Origin: Patescibacteria group bacterium
Lineage (GTDB): Bacteria > Patescibacteriota > Patescibacteriia > 2-12-FULL-60-25
Direction: 5' to 3'
NCBI GenBank assembly: GCA_029210915.1
Contig: JARGGJ010000009.1
Span: 1-61,782 of the forward strand
Length of the DNA: 61,782 bases
Shown here: one piece after another, positions 35,550 to 54,031 of the stretch
Position numbering within the stretch: position 1 is the first letter of the stretch
How the letters are laid out: each line of letters starts with the position of its first letter
Notes under the pieces: model-generated
The model's database searches: none
Told to the model about the DNA's origin: nothing
Seen by the model: the letters and a program-made list of their open reading frames with translations, nothing else
Made by a program: the position numbers and the translations under genes

Positions 35550-36098
35550 CTAAAGCGTAGCAATCAGTTCATCCAACTTTGCTTTAAAAGTCTCAAGATC
35601 CAAGTCATTTTCGATTTTATGGTTTGCTTTGGCGGCTACGCCGGCTATGGTTGCCTCGGTTTCCCTTTCGCTCATGGCTAAGAAATCCTCCCAGGTCATA
35701 TCACCCTCGCCGGCTTTTTCGTTTCTGTTTTTAAGCCGTTCGAATCTTATCTTGGGTGATGCCCAGATTTCGACTAAATGAAACTTTTCATCTTTTTGCA
35801 GATCTTCGATATCCTCCATACGGCGAATACCATCAACAATAACAATGTTCGCTGTAGATGCCTTAACTTGCGCCTCCATAACATTTGCAAGCGCATCTTG
35901 CCCAAAAGCTTGTCGGATGGCCGTAGAAGCTTTGATTAGGTTATCTCGGGATTTTTCTTTATACAATCTTTTTAAAACATCGGCCAAAATATCGCTGAAA
36001 GTAAATATTTCCGCATTTGAATTTTTAGCAAGTATATCAGCCGCCGTACCCTTACCGGCACCGGCTTGCCCAACAAAACCTATTATAATTTTCGGCAT
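35550..36098 (-). CDS. Small P-loop kinase (nucleotide or dephospho-CoA kinase-like)
   Basis: 182 residues. The P-loop is GFVGQAGAGKGTAA (7-20), followed by FTFSDIL, an Asp in IVIVDGIRRMEDIEDL and an arginine-rich lid RFERLKNRNEKAGEGDMTWEDF. This is the adenylate/dephospho-CoA kinase-like branch found in archaea and CPR. The substrate is uncertain; its place next to dut suggests a (deoxy)nucleotide. The start is the family-typical MPKIIIGFVG. Confidence 0.75.
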   Translation of the reverse strand: MPKIIIGFVGQAGAGKGTAADILAKNSNAEIFTFSDILADVLKRLYKEKSRDNLIKASTAIRQAFGQDALANVMEAQVKASTANIVIVDGIRRMEDIEDLQKDEKFHLVEIWASPKIRFERLKNRNEKAGEGDMTWEDFLAMSERETEATIAGVAAKANHKIENDLDLETFKAKLDELIATL

Positions 36099-36248
36099 AA
36101 TTCGTTAATTATCAACTAATGAAACTCAACTGTCAACAAGAGTATCTTGTATCTTGTATCTAGTATCTAGCAGTGTGATATGCAATTAATTTAGCGCAAA
36201 AAAACATCTACGCCACTGCAAAATACAAGATGCTAAATACAAAATACT

Positions 36249-36276
36249 AAAAAACAGCCCTTAGGCTGTTTTTTTG
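36249..36276 (-). terminator. Terminator of rplA
   Basis: ACAGCC and GGCTGT form the stem with A- and T-runs on both sides. Confidence 0.8.
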
Positions 36277-36277
36277 T

Positions 36278-36970
36278 CTAGAAGTTTGATGTATCCATCG
36301 GGATTCCCGGGCCCATGCTTGTTGTGAGCGTGATGCTCTTTAAGTATGCGCCTTTTGAGGATGATGGTTTTTGCTTTTTAATTGAGTCCATTAAAACCTG
36401 TAAATTTTCCTTTAAGCCGGCTGTGTCCAAACTTGTTTTACCGATAATTTGGTGCACTATACCCGTGTCATCATTTTTATAAGCAACTTTACCTTTCTTC
36501 AAATCCTCGATCATCTTAGTGACGTTTGTGCCTACGGTATCTGTCTTTGGGTTAGGCATGAGGCCTTTGGGGCCAAGAACGCGAGCAAGCTTGGCAAGTT
36601 TAGGCATCATATCAGGAGTTGCTACCGCAACATCGAATTCAATAATACCTTTTGTCGAAATTTCTGCAATTAATTCCTCACCTCCAACAATATCCGCCCC
36701 CGCAGCTTTTGCCTCCTTCTCTTTATCAGCTGCAACAAAAGCGGCAACTTTACGTGTCTTACCAATATCATTTGGGAAAACAAGAGTAGCGCGTACAATC
36801 TGGTCGCTCTTTTTAGGGTTGATACCCAAACGAACATGTACCTCTACGGATCCGGTAAACTTGGTGGTTGCTGTCTTTTTAACAAGTTCCAACGCCTCAT
36901 CGGGGTTATACAACTTGCCTGTTTCGATCAATTTCTGCGCTTCAATAAAGCGCTTGCTATGTTTTGGCAT
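36278..36970 (-). CDS. rplA: 50S ribosomal protein L1
   Basis: 230 residues, normal length. L1 forms the mobile stalk at the tRNA exit site and often represses its own operon. Signatures are the start MPKHSKRFIEA, VEVHVRLGINPKKSDQIVR, LARVLGPKGLMPNPKTDTV, KGKVAYKNDDTGIVHQIIGKTS and SITLTTSMGPGI. Normally rplK directly precedes rplA; here the two are separated by 2.5 kb with a gene on the opposite strand, and rplA has its own promoter. Confidence 0.97.
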   Translation of the reverse strand: MPKHSKRFIEAQKLIETGKLYNPDEALELVKKTATTKFTGSVEVHVRLGINPKKSDQIVRATLVFPNDIGKTRKVAAFVAADKEKEAKAAGADIVGGEELIAEISTKGIIEFDVAVATPDMMPKLAKLARVLGPKGLMPNPKTDTVGTNVTKMIEDLKKGKVAYKNDDTGIVHQIIGKTSLDTAGLKENLQVLMDSIKKQKPSSSKGAYLKSITLTTSMGPGIPMDTSNF

Positions 36971-37061
36971 AAACTTTAGAAGGCCGGCTTATTCAGCCAA
37001 TACCTCCGTGGTGCAGACGCCCCGAGCAAAGTCGATGGGCTTCCACGTTAGCTTAATAATG
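36971..37061 (-). promoter_or_regulatory. rplA leader, candidate autoregulatory RNA
   Basis: About 90 nt between the predicted transcription start and the ATG. It holds GGCTGAATAAGCC (stem-loop), ACGGAGGT and a GC-rich segment GCTCGGGGCGTC. L1 and L10 operons commonly carry autoregulatory leaders; which protein would bind here cannot be told. Confidence 0.4.
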
Positions 37062-37066
37062 GGCTT

Positions 37067-37095
37067 AATATAGACTAAAGATAAGAAACCGTCAA
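37067..37095 (-). promoter_or_regulatory. rplA promoter
   Basis: Minus strand TTGACG (37095-37090), 17 bases, TATATT (37072-37067). Confidence 0.75.
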
Positions 37096-37115
37096 GTCTA
37101 TAACTTATTGTCTTG

Positions 37116-37227
37116 AACCTTGATTTACTTGATTTTTGCTCACAATTAACATGATTATTTGATTTTACTTATCAAGTCATTAAAAACAGATAATCAAGGC
37201 AATCCTTTAATCGAGCGAATCAAGGTT
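37116..37227. repeat. AACCTTGATT/AATCAAGGTT element, left of the 37388 cassette
   Basis: 112 bp with perfect 10-base inverted ends AACCTTGATT and AATCAAGGTT. The interior contains TGCTCACAATTAACATGATTA, which is repeated within the element at 38717-38865 in the same orientation. The two therefore flank the gene at 37388 as long direct repeats with inverted ends. Confidence 0.8.
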
Positions 37228-37238
37228 CAGACAAAGGG

Positions 37239-37267
37239 TTGACAAAACCGCTAAAATATGCTAAATT
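37239..37267 (+). promoter_or_regulatory. Promoter of the 37388 cassette gene
   Basis: TTGACA, 17 bases, TAAATT, starting 12 bases after the AATCAAGGTT end. The leader to the ATG is about 115 nt. Confidence 0.75.
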
Positions 37268-37387
37268 ATCGCCATTCATCCATTTCCGGATGGAGCCGTT
37301 TCTGTGCGGATCACAGAGCTGTCTCATGGCTAAGTTCAGGCGTTGGTTTATACTGCCGCCTAACATGCCAAGGATGGAGATCGTACA

Positions 37388-38599
37388 ATGACAAGTGAGA
37401 AGAAAGATCACAGTGTAGCATCATACGCCTTTGGAACATTTCAGTTGTGGCGCGATGGCGTATTAGTCGAAGAGCGAGCCGAACCTCCGAAGCAGATTTT
37501 GCAACATTGTGAAGAAGTTCATGAGGTTGATGAGCCGGGTTGGGTATACGTGGATCCAGGACCTCTACTCATTTGCCAACCTCGCTTGTTCGTGGAGCTG
37601 GAACCAATGCCACCACTTGAGGAAAACGAAAAAGCAGAGGAGATCTATAAGTGTCGTGAGTATGGTGATGATGGATTCCTGCTCCGGCCAGACATGCCGA
37701 TTCCGGGAATCCAAATGGATCCCGACACTGGCCACGAATCCCATGAAGAGGATGATCTGCCGTACATGAACCTCGAAGTTGAGGTTTGTGATGGTGCTGA
37801 AGATGTGGGTAGTCCCGAAATTGATGAAGATTGTGGAAGTGGTCGTCAGCAAGATCCACCCAAGCCCAAGCGCAAGCAACGCGCTGCGAAGCAAGACCGC
37901 CTCACAACCGATCAGCTCGCCGAGCTGCTCGCTATCGACAAGCGTGTCGGTTTGCGTAGCCAGCTCCAACGCATGCTCCACGCGCTCAATTCCGGCGGGC
38001 TAGCTCTCGAAGCTCCTGCCGAGGATATCGCCATCAACTACCGCTGTGAGTGGTGGGAAGTGGAACGTCAGCGCCAAGCCCTTGTGCTTTGGCAAAAAGG
38101 TATCGGCCGGGCATTGGGTTACTCGAGTTACCAAAAGTATCTCGCCAGCATCCCTGGAATTCCAGGACGTCTGCGCATGAAAAACGGCAAGTTCAATCGC
38201 CTGGTGCTTGTCGATACCCGAGCAGGCCTGCAGAAGCTCTGCCATCTGGCTGGGGTTTTCTATGATAGCACCGAGCATCTAGACGCTGATTCGTCAGTGC
38301 GTTGGATGCGTTGTCAGGATGGTCGACGGTACCAGAACGACACTATGATTGCCGCCGACTGTAGTTTTCAGGATGACGAAGACGGCCTGAGTTTGTTCGA
38401 GGGAATCTGCCTTTACATGCAATTCCCTCAGGTTCTTTGTGAATGTTTTGTGATACTTTTCACCGAACCACCAAACACCAGCAGCAACTCAGCTGACGTG
38501 GCTATTCTCTCGATCACAGAACTTGGTGTCAAAGTCGGTAGGACACGCTATGTCACAAACGATAAGTACATGGGCGTAGCCTCCAAGCTGCGTCTGTAA
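37388..38599 (+). CDS. Unknown protein, 'ALGY-YLASIP' family, copy 1
   Basis: 403 residues. The N-terminal half is acidic and probably disordered (residues about 70-165), followed by a basic stretch PPKPKRKQRAAKQ. The conserved C-terminal domain has RQALVLWQKGIGRALGYSSYQKYLASIP, RLVLVDTRAGLQKLCHLAGV, SVRWMRCQDGRRYQ and LFEGICLYMQFPQVL. The gene at 53387 shares this order. The conserved Trp, Arg and Cys suggest a folded binding or catalytic domain; the function is unknown. AAGGA and GGAG lie upstream of the ATG. It lies on the strand opposite the ribosomal operon it interrupts, between two AACCTTGATT elements. Confidence 0.75.
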   Translation: MTSEKKDHSVASYAFGTFQLWRDGVLVEERAEPPKQILQHCEEVHEVDEPGWVYVDPGPLLICQPRLFVELEPMPPLEENEKAEEIYKCREYGDDGFLLRPDMPIPGIQMDPDTGHESHEEDDLPYMNLEVEVCDGAEDVGSPEIDEDCGSGRQQDPPKPKRKQRAAKQDRLTTDQLAELLAIDKRVGLRSQLQRMLHALNSGGLALEAPAEDIAINYRCEWWEVERQRQALVLWQKGIGRALGYSSYQKYLASIPGIPGRLRMKNGKFNRLVLVDTRAGLQKLCHLAGVFYDSTEHLDADSSVRWMRCQDGRRYQNDTMIAADCSFQDDEDGLSLFEGICLYMQFPQVLCECFVILFTEPPNTSSNSADVAILSITELGVKVGRTRYVTNDKYMGVASKLRL

Positions 38600-38615
38600 A
38601 CTCCAACTCAAACAC

Positions 38616-38652
38616 AAAGCGCGTGAACTCACTCTCGAGTCACGCGCTTTTC
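38616..38652 (+). terminator. Terminator of the 37388 cassette gene
   Basis: AAAGCGCGTGA and TCACGCGCTTT form an 11-base stem, followed by TTCT. Confidence 0.8.
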
Positions 38653-38716
38653 TAATTGCGAACCAGGATGTACCGGGATTATCGTTCAATGATTTACAGG
38701 ATTACTATATTGTCTG

Positions 38717-38865
38717 AACCTTGATTTCCGCCAAAGGCGGATCTGCCTATGGATGAAAACATGATTTTCGCTCACAATTAACATGATTACTGTATGAATT
38801 TAATTTATTAATACATTAAGTAATCAAGTTAAATATGGTTTTAAATCGGTTTGAAAATCAAGGTT
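38717..38865. repeat. AACCTTGATT/AATCAAGGTT element, right of the 37388 cassette
   Basis: 149 bp with the same 10-base inverted ends as 37116-37227 and the same TCGCTCACAATTAACATG core. Its left half (TTTCCGCCAAAGGCGGATCTGCC) also matches 6110-6150. Confidence 0.8.
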
Positions 38866-38878
38866 CAAGATTGATGGC

Positions 38879-39361
38879 TCAGTCTTTCTTCTGTTCCTTC
38901 CTAATTATAACCCAGTAATACAAAAATAGGGGAATACCTACGAATAAAAACGACAAGTCGCGGACTGCGGATTTTTGATTGCGGATTGCGCGCATCTCAT
39001 CTTCGCTTAATTGATTCTTTTCACACTCGGCAATTCTTGTTTGGTAATCCGCATCATCAGGTTCTTTTGGAATCATGAAAGCACAAGGCGGATCGCGATA
39101 TTCATTTAAATCAGCTTTTGGAAAAACCCAAGTCTTAAGACCAAGGTTAACCAAATCGGCTGTCGAAAAAACAACCATCATTAAAGCGATCAGTGAAACC
39201 AAGTAAAAGTATACGGTTTTAATAATCTGCGTTTTAGACATTTGCATAGATTTGAAATCATTATCATCGCGAAGCAAATAAACAAGCCCAACGATGAGCA
39301 TTATAAATATTATGAATATACTTAAAGGAAAAAACATGGATAACATATCGATTGCGTTCAT
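38879..39361 (-). CDS. Membrane protein, unknown (three helices, DUF5671-like)
   Basis: 160 residues from ATG 39361. Three membrane helices (about 7-30, 48-72, 137-156) surround an outer loop with PKADLNEYRDPPCAFMIPKEPDD and two cysteines. The segment KTVYFYLVSLIALMMVVFSTADLVN resembles CPR membrane proteins annotated DUF5671; this is a weak match from memory. TATAAT at 39373-39368 ends six bases before the ATG, so the message should be leaderless. Confidence 0.65.
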   Translation of the reverse strand: MNAIDMLSMFFPLSIFIIFIMLIVGLVYLLRDDNDFKSMQMSKTQIIKTVYFYLVSLIALMMVVFSTADLVNLGLKTWVFPKADLNEYRDPPCAFMIPKEPDDADYQTRIAECEKNQLSEDEMRAIRNQKSAVRDLSFLFVGIPLFLYYWVIIRKEQKKD

Positions 39362-39367
39362 GACATT

Positions 39368-39373
39368 ATTATA
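39368..39373 (-). promoter_or_regulatory. -10 box of the 38879 gene (leaderless)
   Basis: Minus-strand TATAAT, six bases before the ATG at 39361. Confidence 0.65.
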
Positions 39374-39480
39374 CCTCATGAACGCAAAAATTAATAAATA
39401 ACAAATAATAAATAATAAAGCGAGCAGAGGGATTAATATTTATTATTTGTTATTTGTAAATTTATTATTTGAAGTAGTAT

Positions 39481-39510
39481 AAAAAAATCGGGCACTAGCC
39501 CGATTTTTTT
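39481..39510 (-). terminator. Terminator of rplK
   Basis: ATCGGGC and GCCCGAT around ACTA, with A- and T-runs, overlapping the rplK stop codon. Confidence 0.85.
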
Positions 39511-39931
39511 ATACTACTTCCAGTCCCATCTGCCTCGCTGTACCCTCTACCATCTTACATGCCGACTCGATTGTTCGGCAGTTAAGATCGGGCATCTTCT
39601 TTTCGGCGATTTCTTTGATTTGTGCTTTGGTAACCTTGCCGATCTTTTCGGCTAAGGGTTTGCCCGAGCCTTTTTTGATACCGGCTGCTTTTTTAAGCAT
39701 TTCAGCAACAGGGGCGACTTTTAAGATAAAGTCGAAAGTTCTGTCCTCATATACTGTGAGTACACAAGGAACAACTTCGCCCATACGGTCGGCGGTAGCG
39801 GCATTAAACTTTGAGCAAAAGTCTGCAATGTTTAAGCCGTGCGGGCCGAGAGCTGTTCCAACCGGAGGAGCAGGGTTTGCCTTGCCACCTTCGATCTGCA
39901 GCTTGATAAGTGTTTTGATTGGTTTGGCCAT
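39509..39931 (-). CDS. rplK: 50S ribosomal protein L11
   Basis: 140 residues, normal. L11 forms the GTPase-associated centre with 23S rRNA. Signatures are [38 protein letters not shown], the [10 protein letters not shown] strand and the C-terminal rRNA-binding [21 protein letters not shown] end ([16 protein letters not shown]). It follows nusG and secE in the usual order but is not followed by rplA. Confidence 0.97.
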
Positions 39932-40092
39932 AAATATAACGTCCCGCGTCTATACGTCCCGCGTCCTACGTCTTTTTGATAACAACGTGGGACGATAGTA
40001 CGTGCGACGAGCGACGAATTGGTTAGTTATAAACGTTTCCAGATGTGATGAGAAGCAGCCTACCGGCCGTCACATCTGTCGCACTTACAACA

Positions 40093-40190
40093 TAATCGTT
40101 CATAACGTTAATCCGTTCATAACGAGTTAAGTGGAAAATTACCGGACAAACATCGTTAACTCGTTATAAACGTTACGAACGTTATAAACG
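40093..40190. repeat. AACGTTATAAACG-type palindrome
   Basis: CGTTCATAACGTTAATCCG and CATAACGAGTTAA are mirrored by TTAACTCGTTATAAACG and ACGAACGTTATAAACG. It separates rplK from nusG. Confidence 0.7.
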
Positions 40191-40193
40191 TAT

Positions 40194-40742
40194 TTATATC
40201 TTCTTGATTTGTGTAAAGTCTAATTCTAAAGGTGTTTCGCGGCCGAACATTGAAACCAAGATTTTTACCTTACCGCGTGCTCCATCAATCTCGATAACCT
40301 TGCCTTCGAATCCTTTAAACGGCCCATCTCCAATTTTTACCGGTGAACCTGTTTGGATATCTATTTGATATGCCGGCGCTTCCTCGGATCCTGAGCGTTT
40401 AACCAAGTAATCTACTTCTTCTTTGGAAAGAGGGGATGGCGTTGTGCCGGTGCCAATAAATCCTGTAACGCTTGGTGTGTTTCTAACAATGTACCAAGAG
40501 TCATCCGTCACAATCATCTCAACCAATACATAACCCGGGAATATCTTTTCTTCAACCAATTTACGCTTACCGTTTTTGATCTTGATCTTCTTTTCAACCG
40601 GAACCATTACATTAAAGATCTTATCTTGCATTCCAAAAGAATCGATACGGCGTTTTAAACTGTCTGTAACAGCTTCTTCGTATCCCGAATAGGTATGAAT
40701 GGCATACCAGCGGCGACCAAGGTCTAGGGTTTGTTTTGGCAT
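40194..40742 (-). CDS. nusG: Transcription termination/antitermination protein NusG
   Basis: 182 residues, normal. NusG binds RNA polymerase and couples it to ribosomes or Rho. The NGN domain has RWYAIHTYSGYEEAVTDSLKRRI and FPGYVLVEMIVTDDSWYIVRNTPSVTGFIG; the KOW domain has VKIGDGPFKGFEGKVIEIDGARGKVKILVSMFGRETPLELDF. Upstream lies secE, as in most bacteria. Confidence 0.97.
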   Translation of the reverse strand: MPKQTLDLGRRWYAIHTYSGYEEAVTDSLKRRIDSFGMQDKIFNVMVPVEKKIKIKNGKRKLVEEKIFPGYVLVEMIVTDDSWYIVRNTPSVTGFIGTGTTPSPLSKEEVDYLVKRSGSEEAPAYQIDIQTGSPVKIGDGPFKGFEGKVIEIDGARGKVKILVSMFGRETPLELDFTQIKKI

Positions 40743-40750
40743 AAAAAATT

Positions 40751-40812
40751 AGTTAAAAGTTTATAAAGTTCATCAAGTTTATAAACTTTACGAACTTTTA
40801 TCTTTATGAACT
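40751..40812. repeat. TTTATAAAGTT-type repeat
   Basis: AGTTAAAAGTTTATAAAGTTC mirrored by AAGTTTATAAACTTTACGAACTTTTA; family of 2679-2772. Confidence 0.7.
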
Positions 40813-40818
40813 ATTGCG

Positions 40819-41199
40819 TTATTGGTTGTTAGTTTCTTCGATTGGCAAAGTTTCTATATTGATATCCGCGTTCGGATCAGAGGTTTCAATATCTACTTCA
40901 CTAAAATCAAACTCAGGCTGAATGGGTTGGCCCGATGCATCGGTTGGAACGGTTGTGGGTACAACAGGGGCTTCCGGAACCGCCGCCGGCGCTGTTTGCA
41001 CTGCGCGCTCTACAAGAGTTTTGTTAACCAATTCGGTTAAACCAATATCTAAAACTCCAAAGAATGCCGCCACACTAATGCTGATTACTATTACTAAAAT
41101 GGAGTAACGAGTTGTTACATCTCTGCTTGGCCAAGTTACCTTTGTAAGCTCCTGCCTAGAGGACCTTATGTAGTTCACGAATTTTTCAATGATATTCAT
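40819..41199 (-). CDS. secE: Preprotein translocase subunit SecE with acidic tail
   Basis: 126 residues from ATG 41199 (MNIIEKFVNYIRSSRQELTKVTWPSR). SecE holds the SecY channel together. The amphipathic helix and one membrane helix (about 33-55, YSILVIVISISVAAFFGVLDIGL) match the single-helix form of about 65 residues. The remaining 60 residues are a Pro/Ala/Val-rich then acidic extension, expected outside the membrane, which is uncommon. The promoter is at 41238-41266. Confidence 0.9.
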   Translation of the reverse strand: MNIIEKFVNYIRSSRQELTKVTWPSRDVTTRYSILVIVISISVAAFFGVLDIGLTELVNKTLVERAVQTAPAAVPEAPVVPTTVPTDASGQPIQPEFDFSEVDIETSDPNADINIETLPIEETNNQ

Positions 41200-41210
41200 A
41201 AAATTTGTTC

Positions 41211-41234
41211 TTAAAAAGCCCCCTAAAGGGCAAC
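41211..41234 (-). promoter_or_regulatory. Hairpin with T-run at the 5' end of the secE leader
   Basis: Minus strand GCCC, TTTA, GGGGGC and TTTTT form a hairpin about four bases after the -10 box. It resembles the arrangement at rpsB (12046-12068). Confidence 0.5.
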
Positions 41235-41237
41235 TGG

Positions 41238-41266
41238 AATATAACACGTATTCTTTAAGATGGCAA
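41238..41266 (-). promoter_or_regulatory. secE-nusG promoter
   Basis: Minus strand TTGCCA (41266-41261), 17 bases, TATATT (41243-41238). Confidence 0.7.
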
Positions 41267-41507
41267 TAGTCTCAAACCTTGGCTCATTTCCACTGTGGAT
41301 ATCTTAAAAAATGCTATATTTACACAATATTTTTATTGAAATAGCATTTTTTAAATTACAATTAACAAATAACAAATAATAAAGATTAATCCCTCCGCTC
41401 GCTTTGGTATTTTTGCAGATAAACGCAAGATTTATCTCTAAGGTAACATTTAAACATTTTGTCCCTAAATCCCATTTGGCGTATACTTCTAAATAGTCTT
41501 AATGTAA

Positions 41508-50180: not shown

Positions 50181-52286
<2,106 letters not shown>

Positions 52287-52322
52287 TCAAGCGTTATTGT
52301 CAAGTCTCCATACCAATATCTG

Positions 52323-52879: not shown

Positions 52880-52917
52880 AAAAAAAGAAAACCGCCCAAG
52901 CTTATTAGCTGGGCGGA
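52879..52917 (-). terminator. Terminator of candidate RNA D
   Basis: Minus strand CCGCCC and GGGCGG with further pairing (AGCT..AGCTT), then TTTTCTTTTTTT. Confidence 0.85.
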
Positions 52918-53259
52918 GGAGGTTCGCGCCACTGCGTTAAGTTGCGATAATTATCGCGCTTAAGCGCAGGGCGCGTCGGTTCATCCCCGAGGGCAGGGAT
53001 AACCAACTACAAGGCCATCTAACGCAGCCTCCTGCGTATCCTTACGGATTCTGGCCGAGTATCCAAGGTTCTGCGCACCGCACGAAAGGTTCCGGGCAAT
53101 CAAAGGAGCCGTTTGGCCCATAATTTCTGCCCGATCAAAATGCAGTGCGCAGGTGTGGCTCATGGGAGTCAACTGACACCCATGGACGAATGATGCAAAG
53201 CGGCCGCATCAAATAGTCTTCGCCCCCCGTAGGATGTAAATACCGCTTAACCTACGATT
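52880..53259 (-). ncRNA. Candidate structured RNA D
   Basis: About 380 nt from a TTGACA promoter to a strong terminator. Stems on the minus strand: CCTACG pairing near the 5' end; GATGC/GCATC; CATGGG/CCCATG; CTGCGCAC with GTGCGCAG enclosing ATCGGGCA/TTGCCCG and GGGCC/GGCTC; ATCCC/GGGAT; and a long hairpin with CGCGCC/GGCGCG, TTAAG/CTTAA and GCGATAATTATCGC. This density of nested stems suggests a functional RNA. A 63-codon ORF (53172-52981) is possible but has no Shine-Dalgarno. It does not match any RNA family I recognise. Confidence 0.6.
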
Positions 53260-53265
53260 GCTGAT

Positions 53266-53294
53266 AAACTAACATAAATATCATTATTTGTCAA
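53266..53294 (-). promoter_or_regulatory. Promoter of candidate RNA D
   Basis: Minus strand TTGACA (53294-53289), 17 bases, TAGTTT (53271-53266). It diverges from the promoter at 53318. Confidence 0.6.
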
Positions 53295-53386: not shown

Positions 53387-54031
53387 ATGTCACTCAAAGA
53401 TTTTCAAGACGCACGTTTGATGGGTAGTGATTCGGTGGTTTGGTCGGAACACTATCGTCAGGCTCGGATTCTGTGGGATAAAGGATTTGGTAAGGCTCTT
53501 GGATATGATGATTTCGAGCACTACCTGGCAAGTATACCGCCAATCGGCACTTCACTGTTTTTGCCAAACGAAGCATTCCCTCATTTGGTATTGGTAGAGG
53601 GTAGGCTAGATATTCGCAGAGCGGTTGATTTTTCAGGAGTATCTCCGATAACCTGGAATCATCCCGACGGTAGAACCGTTCATGAGTATCCCGAAGGACC
53701 CCCACGGTTTCCAAAGAAAACAAATTCCGGGGTACGATGGATGCGCTGTAGTTGTGATATTGAAACATGGGAGCTTAATTTCAGTGAATACTCAGGAGGT
53801 TTCTTTAATAGAACAATAGGACTAGATGCGGTAGAAGGGATTGCATTCTATGTCCAACATCCTCATATCTTCAAGCAAATTAGGGTTGGATTTATGAATT
53901 CAACAAGAGATCCCAGTCACTTTTACTACTTAAAAGAAGAGCAACAAAACATAATTGTTGGTTTTGATGATATTGACTTCAAGACTCTCACCAGGTTTCC
54001 TGTCCGACCCACGGGTAATTCCTGGCTCTAA
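53387..54031 (+). CDS. Unknown protein, 'ALGY-YLASIP' family, copy 2
   Basis: 214 residues, corresponding to the C-terminal half of the protein at 37388. Shared blocks: RQARILWDKGFGKALGYDDFEHYLASIP (copy 1 RQALVLWQKGIGRALGYSSYQKYLASIP), LVLVEGRLDIRRAVDFSGV, SGVRWMRC and AVEGIAFYVQHPHIF. It lacks the acidic N-terminal region. AAAAAGGA lies before the ATG. It is soluble, without signal peptide. The function is unknown. It has its own promoter and a modest terminator, and neighbours two candidate structured RNAs. Confidence 0.75.
   Translation: MSLKDFQDARLMGSDSVVWSEHYRQARILWDKGFGKALGYDDFEHYLASIPPIGTSLFLPNEAFPHLVLVEGRLDIRRAVDFSGVSPITWNHPDGRTVHEYPEGPPRFPKKTNSGVRWMRCSCDIETWELNFSEYSGGFFNRTIGLDAVEGIAFYVQHPHIFKQIRVGFMNSTRDPSHFYYLKEEQQNIIVGFDDIDFKTLTRFPVRPTGNSWL

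Follow-up and report, generated by a model that had tools for sequence, protein, structure and literature searches.

RNA D, a candidate stand-alone structured RNA between gyrB and a histidine phosphatase gene in Uhrbacteria, with predicted tertiary contacts

RNA D, which lies between two ordinary genes, gyrB and a histidine phosphatase gene, is best read from the sequence evidence as a new, narrowly distributed orphan structured non-coding RNA without a catalogued family. The window, that is, the whole stretch of 61,782 nt that was analysed, is contig C49 of the 1.46-Mb genome (G000, 98% complete) of an uncultured Uhrbacteria (Patescibacteria) species. The predicted transcript of about 373 nt runs on the minus strand from 53258 to 52886, so that the position and strand proposed in the initial annotation were correct. 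The homology of RNA D to a sequence in a second species, the conservation of its pairing, its non-coding nature and its separate transcription signals were established computationally. It is somewhat probable that RNA D is a stand-alone, trans-acting structured RNA gene, and a folded scaffold is a likelier role for it than that of an antisense sRNA.

The predicted promoter (53266..53294, minus strand) consists of TTGACA at 53294-53289, a spacing of 17 nt and an extended -10 element, TGTTAGTTT, at 53274-53266, which would place the start of transcription near 53258. The same layout is found before the homologue (TTGACA-17-TGATAGCTT at locus L034), with the consensus TTGACA-17-TGnTAGyTT, and the promoter that had been claimed to bracket RNA D is thus conserved. 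It is absent from the list of a generic promoter scan because TAGTTT fits only three of the six positions of the -10 consensus. At the other end, the strong terminator that had also been claimed corresponds to an intrinsic terminator (52886..52916, minus strand), supported by sequence and fold, with a GC-rich stem at 52916-52892 followed by a T tract. At the sequence level, RNA D therefore carries its own promoter and its own terminator. The terminator in the second species has another sequence, is located about 100 bases further downstream and is non-homologous to that of the window; therefore, the 3´ end of the transcript would differ between the species.

The G+C content of RNA D is 55%, versus 43% in the window. 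The folding energy is -166.4 kcal/mol for the minus strand and -149.5 kcal/mol for the plus strand, with z scores against dinucleotide shuffles of -7.7 and -5.5, respectively. A sliding scan of the 61.8-kb stretch found about a dozen 200-nt windows equally extreme in folding energy; low folding energy by itself does not single out RNA D, and the case for its reality rests on conservation across species. A cluster at 36000-41500 comprises several of the windows that fold most strongly in the whole stretch.

A homologue of RNA D, 74-75% identical, was found in a second species of the genus (Candidatus Uhrbacteria, G008, locus L034), where it is also located between gyrB and the histidine phosphatase gene. 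The alignment spans the region from the promoter to the last hairpin, and most of the other spacer sequence is unalignable. The consensus of the two sequences comprises 93 pairs, all of them standard in both species, with six changed on both sides. Circularity was avoided by predicting the structure from each sequence alone and then reading it on the other. The fold predicted from the window only keeps 93 of the 107 comparable pairs in the homologue, with 14 broken versus 28.8±3.2 expected from random substitutions, and shows six double (compensatory) changes versus 1.9±1.3 expected in the same way. Read on the minus strand, 12 one-sided changes keep the pair, versus three on the plus strand. 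G-U pairing predicts such an excess for the true strand, and the minus strand is favoured. Pair-preserving changes across species, as looked for in a stand-alone structured non-coding RNA, were therefore found with these two sequences, lending support to the structured RNA first proposed here. The covariation appears convincing overall and thin per helix (n = 2 sequences). The helices P3, P8 and P9 are untouched by this evidence, because only two sequences are available and these helices never vary.

The predicted structure (all coordinates on the minus strand) begins at the 5´ end with the P1 hairpin UCGUAG/CUACGG (53227..53257), which carries two compensatory changes, to UCGCGG/CCGCGG. It is followed by the P3 hairpin GAUGC/GCAUC (53192..53210) and by the P4 hairpin AUGGG.GUC/GAC.CCCAU (53162..53183), which at L034 is still a hairpin, with a different stem. 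P5 is a long hairpin, UGCGCACUGCA/UGCGGUGCGCA (53072..53151), the inner stem of which, GGGCAG/UUGCCC, shows one compensatory change. The P8/P9 domain, UAC..GGCCA/UGGCC..GUA with the inner stem CGCAG/CUGCG (53008..53061), is among the most conserved sequence, and gives no covariation information because every pair is invariant. The P10 hairpin, GUUGGUUAUCCC/GGGGAUGAACCGAC (52975..53007), precedes the long P11/P12 hairpin (52925..52974), which has the palindromic apex CGAUAAUUAUCG and three compensatory changes. Of the stems that the initial annotation had singled out for a covariation check, CGCGCC/GGCGCG shows no change between the two species, nor does the core of CTGCGCAC/GTGCGCAG, and CATGGG/CCCATG is still a hairpin, with a different stem. 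In the long hairpin that it described, the apex CGATAATTATCG is identical to the letter in the homologue, and the pair just below has changed from G-C to C-G.

Beyond what had been seen before, the comparison supports two tertiary contacts, PK1 and PK2, with one compensatory change each. PK1 is a predicted kissing loop of 7 bp between the two 5´ hairpins, in which AAGCGGU in the P1 loop (53248-53242) would pair with GCCGCUU in the P3 loop (53204-53198); a G-C pair becomes A-U in the homologue. PK2 is a predicted 6-bp pseudoknot joining the strand GGGGCG, just after P1 (53226-53221), to UGCCCU in the P10 loop (52995-52990), about 225 nt downstream. Its changes in the homologue (G-C to C-G, and two G-U to G-C) are read after moving by hand one ambiguous gap, set next to P1. 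When the test was restricted to bases that a conservative nested structure leaves unpaired, it gave three conserved helices of 6 bp or more versus 0.07 expected (P 0.0005), and two of them carry compensatory changes versus 0.03 expected; the third, GGCGAA/UUCGUC, is an alternative stem that overlaps PK2 and competes with it. Under a looser control, in which all columns were shuffled, four helices of the pseudoknot class were seen versus about 1.4 expected (P ~0.05), a borderline result, and PK1 and PK2 therefore depend on the nested structure being right. Conservation extends to an alternative helix of 11 bp, formed by UUGAUGCGGCC and GGCUGCGUUAG, that would displace P3 and P9, so that a conformational switch is conceivable.

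Under the favoured reading, RNA D would have a sigma-70-type promoter of its own that drives transcription of the minus strand, and would stop at its own terminator. Its hairpins would be drawn together by the P1–P3 kissing loop and by the long-range pseudoknot between the strand after P1 and the P10 loop, and the resulting scaffold would bind proteins encoded elsewhere or pair with its own copies. A scaffold role of this kind, proposed by analogy, is suggested by how compact the fold is, by the unpaired segments that never vary and by the palindrome at the hairpin apex. Action in trans is suggested by the compact fold, by the separate signals for transcription and by the absence of a conserved partner gene next to RNA D; the neighbouring genes gave no functional hint. 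Expression, partners and function of RNA D are inferred.

A rival reading takes RNA D for a long regulatory RNA whose main action would be to base-pair with mRNAs in trans, with its structure serving for stability. The promoter and terminator of its own fit this proposal, as does the narrow distribution, all of them typical of sRNAs. However, most of the length of RNA D is paired, and this pairing, including the tertiary contacts, is kept by compensatory changes, which makes such a role unlikely in comparison with a folded scaffold.

The distribution was explored with DNA and covariance searches over the genus, the family, the order and 380 genomes of the class. RNA D was detected in two of the nine genomes of the genus (G000 and G008), and the 41 genomes of the family and the 380 of the class added none, counts that refer to the few candidates listed per genome at the first pass and may miss very divergent relatives. 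An exact-pattern scan of genome contigs returned the G008 contig only, and an unfiltered model search at the syntenic loci of sister species found nothing. Phage and plasmid collections gave no match to RNA D, and exact-pattern scans of viral contigs gave either none or two matches to one short motif that failed the RNA D model. Literature searches brought up no work on structured RNAs in Patescibacteria, Uhrbacteria included.

The distance between gyrB and the phosphatase gene is about 100-300 bases in other species of the genus (with 116 between the matches in G002, 285 in G001 and about 300 in G007), and the spacer is enlarged in G000, G008 and G004. The spacer of G000 contains RNA D together with a second RNA-like unit, also conserved (52785-52424, minus strand), and a gene for a protein of 214 amino acids; that of G008 contains RNA D; and that of G004 contains the second unit, a gene for a protein of 266 amino acids and a further structured stretch. 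Thus, as judged from these three genomes, RNA-like units seem to be gained and lost at this spacer. The second unit, a conserved non-coding sequence between RNA D and gyrB with the terminator CCGTTGCTCTTGCGACGGTTTTTTT at its end, is 76% identical in G004 (L072:786-1109, minus strand) and gave no match in G008. Two motifs within it, with CTCTTTCCGAG and CTTCTCGGA, resemble each other; the unit folds with a z of only -1.65 and has no match in Rfam. In G004, another candidate structured RNA (L072:1150-1410, minus strand), with TTGACA before it and a terminator-like hairpin after it, sits upstream of the second unit, at the place expected for RNA D; the RNA D model does not match it. The 214-aa protein of the window is encoded on the plus strand (53387-54031), between RNA D and the phosphatase gene; it has no Pfam or PADLOC match and is absent from that place in G008.

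These differing inserts and genes, set against the short spacers of sister species, together with the pseudoknotted fold, speak for another reading, in which RNA D would be a ribozyme or else would belong, as its RNA, to a mobile or host-conflict element inserted into the gyrB–phosphatase spacer. This reading seems improbable, since no Rfam ribozyme or intron matches RNA D, the adjacent 214-aa protein belongs to no family found here and is missing beside the homologue, and RNA D is present as a single copy in its own genome.

In both species RNA D lies upstream of gyrB and shares its strand, as a cis-regulatory leader (a giant riboswitch or attenuator) would. However, terminators intervene between RNA D and gyrB, as does, in the window, the second conserved RNA-like unit with its own terminator; the sequence gives no indication of co-transcription, and RNA D is absent from most relatives that have gyrB. 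In addition, a promoter-like site separate from that of RNA D, TTGATA-17-TAATAT, lies 11 bases ahead of the gyrB ATG and is conserved in G008, and for this reason RNA D is probably not the leader of gyrB; we regard a leader as highly improbable. This promoter-like site (52250-52290, minus strand) is so near the ATG, with 11 bases from the -10 element to the start codon, that the gyrB mRNA may be nearly leaderless.

The length of tmRNA (RF00023) and RNase P RNA (RF00010) is like that of RNA D, and both have a compact pseudoknotted fold. A very divergent housekeeping RNA (tmRNA, RNase P, SRP or 6S) would thus fit the size range and the strong structure, and is nevertheless hardly credible here. 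At the gathering cut-off, Rfam 15 detected two tRNAs only in the window and none of its families at RNA D, and a permissive scan to E<=10 gave nothing overlapping the transcript. ARAGORN likewise reported two tRNAs only, and no tmRNA, in the window. The full tmRNA of the genome is on contig C10 (107 bits), and its only match to RNase P RNA is on contig C1 (90.5 bits, below the cut-off of 100 bits). The covariance check suggested by the initial annotation has thus returned no family, and its remark that RNA D shows no tmRNA or RNase P signature agrees with the blank Rfam result and with the separate loci for both RNAs elsewhere in the genome. A housekeeping RNA would also be expected in most relatives, where RNA D was not found.

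A short protein gene or a folding artefact can be dismissed as scarcely plausible: an open frame of 63 codons exists, but its region shows frameshifting gaps of 1, 1, 2, 2 and 11 bases in the alignment with the homologue, its substitutions are spread evenly over the codon positions (14/14/14), Pfam gives no match and the changes preserve pairs, so that the protein gene was rejected and the earlier impression that no convincing ORF is present was upheld.

OLE, ROOL and GOLLD RNAs are reported to form homo-oligomers without protein (PMC12286853). RNA D resembles these large bacterial non-coding RNAs, with their many hairpins and kissing loops, in style and not in membership; it has no Rfam similarity and was found in only two of the 380 class genomes. 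It is also like the orphan GC-rich intergenic RNA motifs (PMC11109978) in being GC-rich, structured, intergenic, rare and without an assigned function; RNA D fits no Rfam model. A wider proposal, which we put forward tentatively and as less than probable, is that RNA D founds a new class of tertiary-folded bacterial RNA (an RNP scaffold, an RNA-only oligomer or a ribozyme), and that several large RNAs unrelated to one another, RNA D among them, are gained and lost in the gyrB–phosphatase spacer, a hotspot of RNA genes in Uhrbacteria. If RNA D self-assembles or is catalytic on its own, the small set of ornate large bacterial RNAs would gain a member. A pseudoknotted RNA that has no catalogued relative and is apparently a recent gain, at a spacer where a sister species has other RNA-like inserts, would offer a tractable entry into the RNA biology of the reduced genomes of Patescibacteria.

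Finally, the sequence AATCAAGGT occurs in 10 copies in the window versus 0.6 expected (5713, 5986, 6111, 37117/37226, 38718/38864, 52324/52418 and 52870). Three inverted pairs, with copies about 95-150 bases apart, look like the termini of a small element bounded by inverted repeats. Next to the terminator of RNA D is a longer copy, which recurs on contig C33.
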